Shown here: positions 19,544-24,601 of the stretch, one piece after another | How the letters are laid out: the number at the start of each line of letters is the position of its first letter | Numbering within the stretch: position 1 is the first letter of the stretch | Source of the DNA: Mayamaea pseudoterrestris | Lineage: Eukaryota > Bacillariophyta > Bacillariophyceae > Sellaphorales > Sellaphoraceae | DNA: 64,000 bases | Reading direction: 5' to 3' | NCBI GenBank assembly: GCA_027923505.1 | Contig: BROI01000008.1 | Coordinates: 682,001-746,000 of the forward strand | The notes under the pieces: generated by a model | The model's database searches: none | The model's input: only the letters and a program-made list of their open reading frames with translations | Told to the model about the DNA's origin: nothing | Program-made: the position numbers and the translations under genes

Positions 19544-21524
19544 ATGGAATCGCACAATCCAACCGTGGCAGCTCTGCCGAAGGAAGTCGAATCACTCGAA
19601 GAACAAGCAGTGATTGAGAGAAGGTGTTCCTCAAGAAGCTTCCATCAGACCATGATCCCTCTCCCAACTAACGCTTCGCATTTACAACCTGATGCACTCG
19701 ACCATGGGAATAGCGACAGCGCTGGACCAAGCGTCAATGAAGGCTTGCCGCTGGCGGAGAAACTGGAGGATGCAGGGGCAGCGCCAGGTGCCAGCAACCC
19801 TAATTTTCCGCCGCAGGTGCCAGGCGCGTCCGATGATGCGGACGAGGATCAAGAGCTCATGAATGAGCTCGACTCAGAAATGGGAGGCGATCGCAATGGA
19901 CATCAACCAGTCGCAGAATTTCTTTATCAGCTCACCAAAATGCTTACGGATGATAACACGGAGGTCATCGAGTGGAGTGACTCTCGCATCAAGGTGCACG
20001 ATCCTCAAAAGCTAGAAGGCGATATTCTCCACAAATACTTTCGTCACTCCAAGTTTGCGTCGTTCCAAAGGCAATTGAACTACTTTGGATTTCGTAAAAT
20101 TGCGGGAAAGGGAAAGATGAGTCCATGGTAAGTTGCTCGAGGCTTGGTATTATATAAATTATAGCGTGACCCTGGGATTTGCTCATCGTTCAATGATTCT
20201 CTTGTTCAGCTCATATGTCAACGATGGAGCCACGACGGATATTCGCAGCTTGCTCCTTATTAAGCGCAAGACAAATGGATCGGCGGCGCGAAAGGCTGCC
20301 ATTCAGCAGCGCTCAATGAATCCCTTGCTTGGCTTGAACCTGCAGACCCTCGCTGCTGCCGGACAGCAAATGAATCTTGCCAATCTCGGCGGTCAAGCCT
20401 TTGGAAACATGGGCGGCCCTTCGCTTGCGAATGCAATGGCGCTGTTATCGGAGAATGCTCTTCGAGCTGGACTAGAGCAAATGCAGAGTGGAAACGGTTT
20501 GACTGGACAGCAGCTTGGGTTACTCGCACTTCAGCAGCAACAGCAACAATATCATCAGTTGCAACAGCAGCAGCAGTTGTTGCAGCATAATCACCAGCAG
20601 CCGCAACAGAGTCAGCAGACGCAGTTGCACCAGCATTTGTTGCAGTTGCAGCAAAGTCAACAACAACAGCAAAACATGCAACAGCCGACTCCGCAGCCGC
20701 AAGTTAGCAGCAACCTCGACCAGATGCGGCAAGGACTAGTGGGGCGAAAAGGTTTGTTGCAATCAAACTCTCTTGATCAGCTGGCACAGTTGACTGCTCA
20801 GCTTCACGAGGCGCAACAGCAGCAGAACAATAATGTTTCTTCTGGGGATTCACCAAGCACATCCACTACGAACATTCATGCTGCAGCGACGAGTATGCAG
20901 TCGCTTCAGAACAATCTAAACATGATTCTAAGTAACCAAAGTGCATCTGGGGCTGCTTCTTCCGCAATGAATCCGGCGTCTGCCGCCTTGTTGGCACAGC
21001 AGAGGGCCATGGGCAATCCTGCTTCGGCCGCACTCCAGGCGATGGATGGTGCGTCGGGTGGAGCGACGGCTGCCGCCGCCAACAGCAACAATTTGTTCGA
21101 ATCGGCCTTGAATTTAAAGTCGTTGCTGCAGGAGCACCAGGAATCCGCGGCCAGGAACCAAGCCGCCAACGGTGGAGGTAACAACATCAGTAGTAATCAG
21201 GGTGTTTCGTCTCGGTTGAACCAACATCGCCTTGGGTCGAGCAATGCTATGTTTCCTGACAACATGAGCACCCTTTCGCTGGGCAATTTGCTCGGAAGTT
21301 CAAATCGCCTCAATTCGTTGTTGAGCCTGAACAGTCTCATGGGGTCTCGGGAACCATCCTTGGCTGATTTCGCCGCCTTGAATGGAATGCATCAGTTTCC
21401 CTACCACGCGCAGTTTCCTCCGCCCGGAGCGACGACTAGTGCTGGAAATGGAGGAGCGGTGGCGAATGCGCCCATGAGTGCTGCAGATTTGGCACAGCGT
21501 TTGCGACAAGCCAATTACTCGTAG
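19544..21524 (+). CDS. HSF: Heat-shock transcription factor (HSF), glutamine-rich
   Basis: Two exons, 19544..20127 and 20210..21524, give 632 residues. The 82-bp intron (GTAAGT...TTCAG) splits a Cys codon between KMSP and SYVND. The HSF DNA-binding domain occupies about 122-215: [52 protein letters not shown] (recognition helix) and [13 protein letters not shown] glutamine-rich region near residues 330-385 (CAG/CAA repeats about 20,530-20,700) and Asn/Ser/Ala-rich text follow, typical of activation domains. No heptad HR-A/B trimerisation domain is obvious by eye. HSF families are greatly expanded in diatoms; targets are unknown. An acidic N-terminal extension of 120 residues precedes the DNA-binding domain. 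Confidence 0.9.
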
Positions 21525-21827: not shown

Positions 21828-23147
21828 ATGCCAAGCGAATCTGCTTTGGCTAAATCACTTTTGGATCTTGGCGACCCATCAGGCCGTCAAGATGGACAGT
21901 ACTGGGACGAATGGTTTCGTCTGGTTTGTTGCGAAAGCAGTAATAGTCATCGGCCATTCGAGTGGTATACGAGTCCTGAGCAAGTGAAGCGAGTGATCTC
22001 CTTTCACATGAAAGAGATGTCGCAGTCTCTGGCAATGGTGGATCAAGTCGGGAGAGACATGCTGCCGCGACAAATGATCCATCCTGGATCGGGAACATCG
22101 TTGGTGCCGCTCGCTTTATCGGAGGAATACCCAGAGCACCGGCATGTGGTGGTTGAGGTATCTCCAGTGGCAATCCAAGAGATGAAGGAGTTCCACGAAA
22201 AACAGATTCTCGAAAGTCGCCTATCGCATCAAGTTTGTCTCATTGACTACGTCCTAGCCGACTTGCTTGACGCGTCAACACCACTCGACCTGCCGCCTCT
22301 GTCTTTCGATGCGTGGATTGACAAGGGGCTGATTGACGCTGTCTTTTCCAACAAAGATCATGATAGAAATCGTGTTCAAGCCAAATACCTGTTCCAACAA
22401 GCTCATTATCTGTTGACTGATTTTGGTATCATGCTGATTGTCAGTGTGGCGGAACGGCATAGCCTTGAACTTGTGCTTGAAAACTGGATGACCACGGCGG
22501 AAAATGGAGATCTCTTATGGGCAACTTTGCATATCTGGGAGATGGAACCAGTATCTGGCGAAATGCTGCCGTTTGGATTCGTGCTAATCAAATCATCGTT
22601 ATCATCAACGATGGAACACTCCGCGTCAGGATCGGCACGTGTTGTTATTCATCCAATGCATGGGATGGCATCAGCATTGTTAGTGACTACAGAAAATGCA
22701 ATTGAAACGGTCGTTGGCTACATCGCCTGTGCAAGAGAAGCATATATTAAGACAACCCGCGCTTCAAAAGACAAGAGACTAATGCTAACGACGCTCGATC
22801 TTAAGCCTTACGATGCCGAAACAGATCTTGTAGCACTTAGTGAGCGAATTCGCACCATGCAGTGGCAAGCCGAGGGACCTGATGGTCTACAAAAACTCAG
22901 GCCTGTGTGGCAAACCTTTTATAAGGATGGCGTTGAGCAATTAGAAGAGATTATTCCTATTGCTTTTGGAATATCCAAGCTTCGCTTACAATGTATTATA
23001 CGTGCGGACGATCTTGAACTTTTAGTTTCGGCTATAAATGATTGGGAAGGCGATGATATCATGGAAGGAGTGCAGTCAGTTGATGTTGACTGGGAAACGA
23101 GCGCCGCGATAGCCGATGTTGCCGCTTTTGTAAAAGACAGGCGATGA
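21828..23147 (+). CDS. Fusion of METTL13/CSKMT-type methyltransferase with eEF1B (EF-1 beta/delta) GEF domain
   Basis: One uninterrupted frame of 439 residues. Residues about 22-255 are a seven-beta-strand methyltransferase of the METTL12/METTL13 type: YWDEWF...FEWYTSPEQV at the start, MIHPGSGTSLVPLALSEE as the SAM-binding motif, VVVEVSP as the acidic strand end, FDAWIDKGLIDAVF as the hallmark DKGxxDA motif, and MLPFGFVLIK at the end. Residues about 316-425 are the elongation factor 1 guanine-exchange domain: LTTLDLKPYDAETDLVALSERIR, then IIPIAFGISKLRLQCIIRADDL and VQSVDVDW, matching the eEF1B pattern DVKPWDDETD / VPVGYGIKKLQIQCVV / VQSMDVAAF. Known relatives of the first half methylate eEF1A or citrate synthase; the second half loads GTP on eEF1A. 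The shared partner suggests eEF1A as substrate, which is inference. There is no targeting signal. Confidence 0.88.
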   Translation: MPSESALAKSLLDLGDPSGRQDGQYWDEWFRLVCCESSNSHRPFEWYTSPEQVKRVISFHMKEMSQSLAMVDQVGRDMLPRQMIHPGSGTSLVPLALSEEYPEHRHVVVEVSPVAIQEMKEFHEKQILESRLSHQVCLIDYVLADLLDASTPLDLPPLSFDAWIDKGLIDAVFSNKDHDRNRVQAKYLFQQAHYLLTDFGIMLIVSVAERHSLELVLENWMTTAENGDLLWATLHIWEMEPVSGEMLPFGFVLIKSSLSSTMEHSASGSARVVIHPMHGMASALLVTTENAIETVVGYIACAREAYIKTTRASKDKRLMLTTLDLKPYDAETDLVALSERIRTMQWQAEGPDGLQKLRPVWQTFYKDGVEQLEEIIPIAFGISKLRLQCIIRADDLELLVSAINDWEGDDIMEGVQSVDVDWETSAAIADVAAFVKDRR

Positions 23148-23226
23148 GACGCTCAGTAGCGCATGGAAGCGTAGCAATTTGTTACTTTTCACGTATAACT
23201 GTTTAACGCTAAATGCTAAATAAATA

Positions 23227-24601
23227 TTAAAAATGGAGTGAATCGTCCGTCTCGTTACTGCCGTTGATAGGATTGCCGTCATTGCTCCTTTGAACGTTGG
23301 GAAAGTCGACAAAACTCATACCTGACCCACCTGCCGTTACATTCCATGCCTCTCCTTCTTCATCCACTTCCGGAATCATGGCCAAATCAATAAGCGACGA
23401 GTTCCGACTCAAGAAGCCGTAGGTAGGGCGTGATCCTGTACCCTCCAGCGACGTCAAGTCAGACTCGCTCGAGCTGCTGTCAAAAACTTCGTTCACGCAA
23501 TTTGCATAATTTCGCTCCAACTGCGAAAGTGGTTGGTCAGTAGTGGAGTCATCCGACAATGAGCTACTTGCCGCCGATGATGCACTTGGTTCCGTTTCAA
23601 TCATGTAGTTGCTGTCCGCAACAAAATTGCTACTCAATGACCATCCATGGCGTATCCCTCTTCCCGCAGCGCTACGCGCGAGCGCTTGTTGGTGATTCTC
23701 CGTGAGACTTACTGACGAAGGTGGCAAGGAAGGGTCAACGACGACCGTGTTGCCCCTCGTCAGCCTGCCGTTTGCCCGCGCAGCGTTAACCGCAGAGGAA
23801 GCCTTCCTTCTACCACCGATTGGCTTCTCAACTGGGTCTGGTCCCGAAACACTGCCCTTGCGCTGTGTAAGAAAGTCATACGTAGACAGGTGAGGACGAT
23901 GATGTTCTCCTTACCACAACGCATCCTTCAAACCGTTTAAACCTCCAGCCCGCTAGCTAACTTACCTTGATGTATATCAGGCTGCCAAGTTCTCCTTTAG
24001 CAGCTTCGTTCACGTATGAACAAGGTGCCATCTTTCCTTTTCCGGCAAGCTTGCGAAACCCAAAGTAGTTGAGCTGTCTCTGCAACGAGGCAAACTTAGA
24101 GTGTCGAAAGTACTTGTGCAGAACCTCCGTTTCCAGTCGATGCGGATTGTGCACCTCGATGCGGCCAGCTGTACAAGAAAGTGGTGGCAAAGTAAGTACC
24201 TATTCCGCCCAGCTTTCATATAAAAAATAACGAAAAGCAGCGGGTCAATGCGTACCATTATTCCACTCGATAACATCCGAATTTTCGTCCGCCAACATCT
24301 TGGTCAATTGGTACAAGAAGTCAGGTATTGAATGAGGCGAAGTATTGGCTATGTGCGTGTAACTTGGTCGCGTGAAGGTTGGCAGCTTGACCTCGTGTTT
24401 AAAGGGTCGTTGCTGCATCTGCTGCTCTCTCTTGTCAGACGCATCAGAACTCTTGCCGGTAAACGTTGGGAGTTCGTCGGCCGCTGGCAGACCCATGATG
24501 AAGCTGTCGAGGGACGACTCGGAGCTTACGGCGTTAAAAGATCCTCCTTGTTTGATGGTTGCTGATGATAGACTTTTCTCATGGTCGTTCTCTGTGTACA
24601 T
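23227..24601 (-). CDS. Second heat-shock-factor-type protein
   Basis: Three exons, 24601..24256, 24168..23966 and 23862..23227, give 394 residues; the introns begin GTACGC and GTAAGT and end GTACAG and ACACAG, and phases fit. The DNA-binding domain (about 92-185) reads [59 protein letters not shown] and [21 protein letters not shown]. The wing segment ELGSLIYIK differs from the [11 protein letters not shown] of the neighbouring HSF. The C-terminal half is Ser/Asp-rich without recognisable domains. It shares the [11 protein letters not shown] and RHSKFAS core with the HSF 3 kb away on the other strand, but the exon structures differ, so I would not call them a fresh local duplication. The first intron interrupts the domain at a position not used in the neighbour. 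Confidence 0.85.

Follow-up and report, generated by a model that had tools for sequence, protein, structure and literature searches.

Reading frame and surroundings of the fusion gene

In the 64,000-nucleotide stretch of Mayamaea pseudoterrestris DNA that was analysed (the window), an open reading frame specifying 439 amino acids (441 codons when measured from stop to stop) extends from an ATG to a stop codon without any internal stop, and comprises a predicted methyltransferase (MT) half, a linker and a predicted eEF1B-type exchange (GEF) half, whose positions and recognizable motifs are collected in Table 1. The chance expectation for such an open frame, at the local base composition, is approximately 1e-6 per 64 kb, and a search of the 30.6-Mb genome retrieved the fusion ORF as a single copy. 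The proposal of the initial annotation that one frame joins both domains is therefore real, and the possibility that two adjacent genes had been misread as one was ruled out, since there is no stop or frame change between the halves.

Table 1 Features of the fusion gene (positions refer to the window; residues to the 439-residue protein)
Feature	Residues	Positions	Strand	Basis or remark
MT-GEF fusion gene, one open frame	1-439	21828..23147	+	no stop or frame change within
METTL13/EEF1AKMT4-like seven-beta-strand methyltransferase domain (putative)	1-258	21828..22601	+	profile, tree
YWDEW...FEWY	25-47	21900..21968	+	compare L019 YWE..FEW, L036 YWED..YEW, 2PXX YW..YDW
Motif I GSGTS, AdoMet-binding loop	87-91	22086..22100	+	alignment
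E110, acidic, occupying the Post I position	110	22155..22157	+	alignment
Post II WIDKGLIDAVF, with D165 at the Post II aspartate place	163-173	22314..22346	+	alignment
Linker	259-311	22602..22760	+	families sought over 22602-22766, none above cut-off
Divergent EF1_GNE (eEF1B exchange) domain with basic lead-in ASKDKR	312-439	22761..23144	+	Pfam, alignment
F380, at the place of the eEF1B-alpha phenylalanine of yeast (F163)	380	22965..22967	+	alignment
VAAFVK, possibly equivalent to the IAAMQK end of yeast, which contains K205	431-436	23118..23135	+	by eye
AATAAA, possible polyadenylation signal		23219..23224	+	begins 72 bases past the last stop-codon base

The gene is flanked by two open frames, 19544-20131 (+) and 24245-24601 (-), both of which presumably encode heat-shock-factor DNA-binding domains, to judge from their appearance. 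A two-copy tandem repeat, outside of which the fusion ORF is located, occupies the window from about 29959 to 64000 and runs on to about G000:C8:751959; its copies are offset by exactly 20,000 bases, differ by one mismatch (35377), and stem either from a duplication of very recent date or from faulty assembly.

Codon scoring, performed with a reference of six ORFs only, ranked the true frame above the other five frames in both the MT and the GEF part. The linker, scored over 22599-22781 (residues 258-318), returned -0.150 per codon versus -0.017 and 0.081 in the MT and GEF parts, respectively, and one antisense frame scored higher there (-0.026) but holds two stops. The GC content of the linker by codon position is 0.475, 0.508 and 0.361, and third-position GC amounts to 0.51 in the MT part and 0.38 in the GEF part. 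Because of this weaker coding signal a small in-frame intron is possible in the linker, which would leave both domains in one protein, and we infer that the MT and GEF halves are translated as a single chain. The internal in-frame ATGs (22563, 22611, 22656, 22665 and 22782) could point to two products, MT-only and GEF-only, being generated from one locus through alternative transcripts; this is very improbable, considering that, with no stop between the halves, an MT-only product could arise only through a further exon or stopless polyadenylation, and that the sole GTRAG donor-like site of the ORF (22840) sits within the GEF core.

Relatives of the fusion were sought in a viral and a prokaryotic collection, a search which has no bearing on other algae, and none was confirmed either among the viral sequences (pattern stretches: 2 for the whole protein, 34 for profile A1 and 5 for the GEF half) or among the prokaryotic ones (6 for the whole protein and 224 for profile A2), so that a lineage-specific accident is possible. 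The whole protein had no match in NCBIfam, its own genome yielded no close unfused counterpart of either half, and nothing on an MT-GEF architecture was encountered in the open-access literature at the level of titles and abstract openings; the fusion may be a new combination of known domains. Stramenopile domain fusions have been reported, 21 of them common to an oomycete and two diatoms, in a paper whose main text contains neither ‘elongation factor’ nor ‘methyltransferase’ (PMC2705460). AlphaFold, run on single sequences, returned unusable models for the whole protein and for its last 126 residues (mean pLDDT of 37.1 and 41.5, respectively), most likely because there are too few relatives.

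Such an accident would mean either that a methyltransferase gene had picked up a duplicated eEF1B tail, the fusion decaying or at any rate having no selected joint function, or that the assembly had been wrongly joined. It would be consistent with a fusion known from one genome, with the weak codon signal and unusual GC content of the linker, with the difference in third-position GC between the halves, and with the presence on the same contig of the 20-kb near-identical tandem repeat, itself perhaps an assembly fault. Yet both halves are free of stops in one frame and have kept family residues despite deep divergence, which would suggest long selection, while the ORF lies outside the repeat and close unfused copies of either half are lacking from the genome searched; an origin by chance or decay is accordingly given a slim probability.

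A divergent methyltransferase half

The Pfam model Methyltransf_31 matched the whole protein with an E value of 0.0037 (17.4 bits) and the N-terminal part with an E value of 0.0011 (19.1 bits), which stays below its cut-off of 27 bits, and no other Pfam methyltransferase model exceeded its cut-off for the MT half. The domain search by which the initial annotation had proposed to verify both halves was consequently successful for EF1_GNE, above its cut-off, but not for the methyltransferase models, and Pfam by itself would have missed the MT half. These models are generic and not specific to the METTL13/EEF1AKMT4-like group; the paralogues L021 (contig C3), L019 (C25) and L036 (C5) each exceed at least one of the generic methyltransferase cut-offs. 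The MT half alone matched no PDB chain at E values of up to 10.

A METTL13-type profile from which the fusion had been left out, and which was composed of L019, L008 (C5), L021 and the letters of the human PDB chain 2PXX, assigned the MT half 47.3 bits (E = 1.6e-13), as compared with a maximum of 5.3 bits for 2000 shuffles. Twenty other methyltransferases of the genome were considered as controls, of which 16 were valid following removal of L028 and L039 (wrong frame, with lengths of 125 and 203 instead of 291 and 332), L040 (the same gene as L019, which had been used for training) and L036 (a member of the group); on the same profile the top two of these 16, some of which are near copies (L022 and L023 score alike, and L025 and L026 almost coincide in the tree), reached 34.4 and 33.6 bits, so that the margin of the fusion, 47 versus 34 bits, is modest. 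When the fusion was included in the profile (A1), the top PDB match was 2PXX, at 5.5e-12; this chain, with the record name MGC2408, is taken here to be human EEF1AKMT4.

In a 14-row tree with eight outgroup rows drawn from the 16 valid controls, the METTL13/EEF1AKMT4-like group, with the fusion included, was recovered at 95/91, and the fusion paired with L021 at 91/88, the exact position of the fusion being unsure on account of its long branch. L021 is the nearest relative of the MT half (32% identity over 135 residues, E = 0.0046; 31% in another comparison). As judged from the leave-one-out profile and the tree group, the MT half is a divergent putative member of the METTL13/EEF1AKMT4-like group, and the family (METTL13/CSKMT-like) had been named correctly beforehand.

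The residues of the group that are retained in the MT half are G87, G89, E110, D165, K166 and D170. In this fold the corresponding motif positions are tied to AdoMet binding and to Post II, as described in the accessible part of a study of METTL13, whose residues are those of the METTL13 C-terminal domain and are transferred to the fusion by motif (PMC6109062). Presence of the YWDEW...FEWY segment suggests that nothing is missing from the N end of the domain, the match of residues 25-47 alone to 2PXX being insignificant (0.3 bits). The MT half thus resembles the METTL13 N-terminal domain and EEF1AKMT4 in its predicted seven-beta-strand core, its GxGxS motif I, its acidic Post I residue, its DKG.(L/I)DA Post II and its YW..FEW-like N-terminus. 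It differs from METTL13 in carrying a GEF domain where METTL13, in the accounts available, bears a second methyltransferase (PMC6109062, PMC10238732).

A divergent exchange domain with a rebuilt end

The Pfam EF1_GNE model, with a cut-off of 20.8 bits, matched the whole protein at E = 5.5e-9 (36.5 bits) and the part from 22602 onwards at E = 6.2e-10 (39.5 bits). The match falls in two stretches, the best of which spans profile positions 37-82 of 88, and the final six profile positions lack a match; the initial annotation, which had announced a full EF-1 beta/delta GEF domain, was therefore right as to the family but not as to the word ‘full’. Five PDB matches were obtained at E values of up to 1, all of them eEF1B/EF-1-beta/delta chains, with 1b64 at the top (5e-5). 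A GEF profile composed of both eEF1Bs of the same genome and of yeast and human chains, but without the fusion, assigned the latter (residues 304-439 being the piece used in alignments) 37.6 bits, with 2000 shuffles peaking at 9.3 bits.

Identity of the GEF half amounts to 28-37% over aligned columns. Like the eEF1B exchange domain (EF1_GNE, PF00736), it retains the start LDLKPYD..TDL, the core PIAFGI.KL (here PIAFGISKL), a residue equivalent to F163 and the VQSVD near the end, and it shares with the eEF1Bs of its own genome an ASK(D/E)K directly ahead of the domain; unlike in those eEF1Bs, where an acidic stretch precedes the domain, a methyltransferase does so in the fusion. Four small insertions, totalling 19 residues, are located N-terminal of PIAFGI, and one of five residues occurs later. 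These insertions were judged by inspection to be too short for unspliced introns, and this explanation was rejected. From the alignments the GEF half is a divergent domain of the predicted EF1_GNE type, with small insertions and a rebuilt C-terminus.

Two positions are relevant to the contact of this domain with eEF1A. The yeast phenylalanine aligned with F380 is taken to be F163, and a tyrosine occupies its place in the eEF1Bs of the same genome and in the human chains. Between VQSVD and VAAFVKDRR the fusion has 11 residues, VDWETSAAIAD, the yeast counterpart being IAAMQ, and a pairing of K436 with yeast K205 is attractive but was made by eye; it requires an 11-residue insertion and places VAAFVK where neither alignment does. 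Shuffling the 22-residue tail 200,000 times produced the pattern (I/V/L)AA(F/M)xK, which was picked after it had been seen, in 122 cases, and an equal number of sequences drawn from the composition of the protein produced it in 10. The two ordinary eEF1Bs (L002:1492-2121, - strand, and L003:1492-2094, - strand) both have ISMSVL as their last residues, so that the C-terminal lysine corresponding to K205 is missing, and K205 is therefore no reliable guide in this lineage.

In the published yeast complex, as far as the accessible portions of the two reports describe it, eEF1B-alpha sits on eEF1A domains 1 and 2, with F163 directed to a pocket of domain 2 and K205 to the Mg2+ site (PMC10844748, PMC5806593), and mutation of K205 is lethal (PMC5806593). 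A true bifunctional enzyme, with GDP release by the GEF half and methylation by the MT half within one encounter, so that the mark would be coupled to the GTPase cycle as the initial annotation had proposed, is conceivable in view of the retained F163 equivalent, of a VAAFVK tail that resembles the K205 end, and of the influence of nucleotide state on this enzyme family, as indicated by the GTP effects on K36 and K55 methylation in the available text of PMC10238732. Such an enzyme is nevertheless unlikely, because the pairing of K436 was made by eye at the cost of the 11-residue insertion, several further insertions are present, and exchange is already served by two normal eEF1Bs, themselves without the terminal lysine.

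Translation components of the same genome and the proposed role

The two ordinary eEF1Bs are encoded on C1 and C5 (70.6 and 68.9 bits), for which reason the fusion is unlikely to be the main exchange factor. One canonical eEF1A was found, on C2, with a short first and a long second exon; its N-terminus reads GKEKVH, and K36 and K55 (numbered by eye) are retained. Besides eEF1A, PF22594 had two matches, on C11 and C12, which look like eRF3- and HBS1-type factors, an identification that we assume. L036 matched 2PXX at 5.7e-33 and is a predicted stand-alone EEF1AKMT4-like enzyme, so that K36 is probably served already. As a single copy beside the ordinary eEF1Bs, eEF1A and this stand-alone enzyme, the fusion would seem to be an additional protein with a specialised role.

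The human eEF1A-KMT group, to which METTL13 and EEF1AKMT4 belong, has as its fourth member CS-KMT, the citrate synthase enzyme. It comprises four lysine methyltransferases, and eEF1A is the substrate of three, according to the part of PMC10238732 available. In a related case, that of the eEF1A methyltransferase Efm4/eEF1A-KMT2 (METTL10), a beta-hairpin occupies the pocket of eEF1A used by eEF1B-alpha, and eEF1B-alpha inhibits this separate methyltransferase (PMC10844748, in the portion consulted). GEF and methyltransferase thus compete for the pocket in that case, whereas in the fusion both belong to one chain, with the GEF half as the proposed dock. Variant or chimeric eEF1B subunits are likewise represented by eEF1B-delta-L and by eEF1B-gamma, a GST fusion, for which, unlike for the present protein, no methyltransferase is mentioned in the available parts of the respective papers (PMC7841112, PMC5851275).

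The reading favoured here, to which a probability of about one half is assigned, is that of a METTL13/EEF1AKMT4-type eEF1A methyltransferase which docks through a tethered eEF1B-type GEF module. The GEF module would most likely serve as a docking arm that clasps domains 1 and 2 of eEF1A, F380 taking the position in the domain 2 pocket that F163 has in yeast. It would hold the MT half beside the G domain, near the known sites of the family (K36, K55 and the N-terminus), so that eEF1A may receive its methyl group while GDP is leaving or directly thereafter. The covalent link would in this manner turn the competition between GEF and methyltransferase into cooperation, the MT half reaching a lysine left uncovered by docking. 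Methylation of K36 requires GTP and that of K55 is slightly diminished by it (PMC10238732, available text), which would favour K55 over K36 if the nucleotide-free or GDP state is bound, and structural data reportedly suggest that K55 and the N-terminus are uninvolved in eEF1B-alpha contacts (PMC6109062, accessible part). It is from sequence that we infer eEF1A as the substrate, docking by means of the GEF half, the position to be methylated and whatever exchange activity may be left.

The docking reading is favoured by the EF1_GNE and MT profiles, the tree, the motif residues, the F163 equivalent and an eEF1A with K36, K55 and the GKEKVH N-terminus. It is weakened by an MT half that on its own matches no PDB chain at E values of up to 10 and no Pfam model above cut-off, by the modest MT margin and the long branch, by the failure to confirm a relative in the viral and prokaryotic collections, and also by the unusable structure models, the divergence of the GEF half, the presence of L036 and the inhibitory effect of GEF binding in the published case (PMC10844748, as available). 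Alternatively, the MT half could act elsewhere, on an eEF1 subunit, on a tRNA synthetase in the complex or on a protein unrelated to translation, the GEF half only locating it in the eEF1 complex; the divergence of the MT half, the human group member that is not directed to eEF1A (PMC10238732, available text) and the sister L021, in which Pfam detected no GEF domain at E values of up to 0.01, would agree with this, but a GEF domain would be an odd address tag unless the target is eEF1A or its partners, and another substrate is regarded as quite unlikely.

A bolder reading, judged unlikely, would make the fusion a self-targeting eEF1A writer, in which an exchange factor and a lysine methyltransferase have evolved into a single enzyme whose marking of eEF1A is confined to the recharging step and ties the methyl mark to elongation-cycle flux. 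The function of eEF1A methyl marks is largely open, and how eEF1A methyltransferases select their residues is described as poorly understood in the available text of PMC10844748. A natural fusion of writer and exchange factor would offer a hint as to the moment of the GTPase cycle at which marking occurs, as well as a tractable construct, and would, if the reading holds, add a further mode of eEF1A targeting to the linear-motif recognition and beta-hairpin docking described there (PMC10844748).

Of the paralogues, L021 (1372-2427, + strand) has a Post II reading DKSTLDC and, besides lacking a GEF domain, an approximately 100-residue C-terminal tail without a match (Pfam, E values of up to 0.01). 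L019 and L008 were found through the pattern DKGxxDA, which occurs at 16 sites in the whole genome, one of them being the fusion, and were kept as METTL13-like methyltransferases; L021 and L036 emerged from different searches. L010 reads as another protein and was rejected, the motif of L007 and L009 fell in no 80-codon open frame, and a site on C28 was left out of the follow-up. The remaining sites, nine of the 16, represent one identical 20-mer (L005, L006, L011, L012 and L014-L018) and were set aside as a repeated element that is perhaps, as a guess from its appearance, a retrotransposon.
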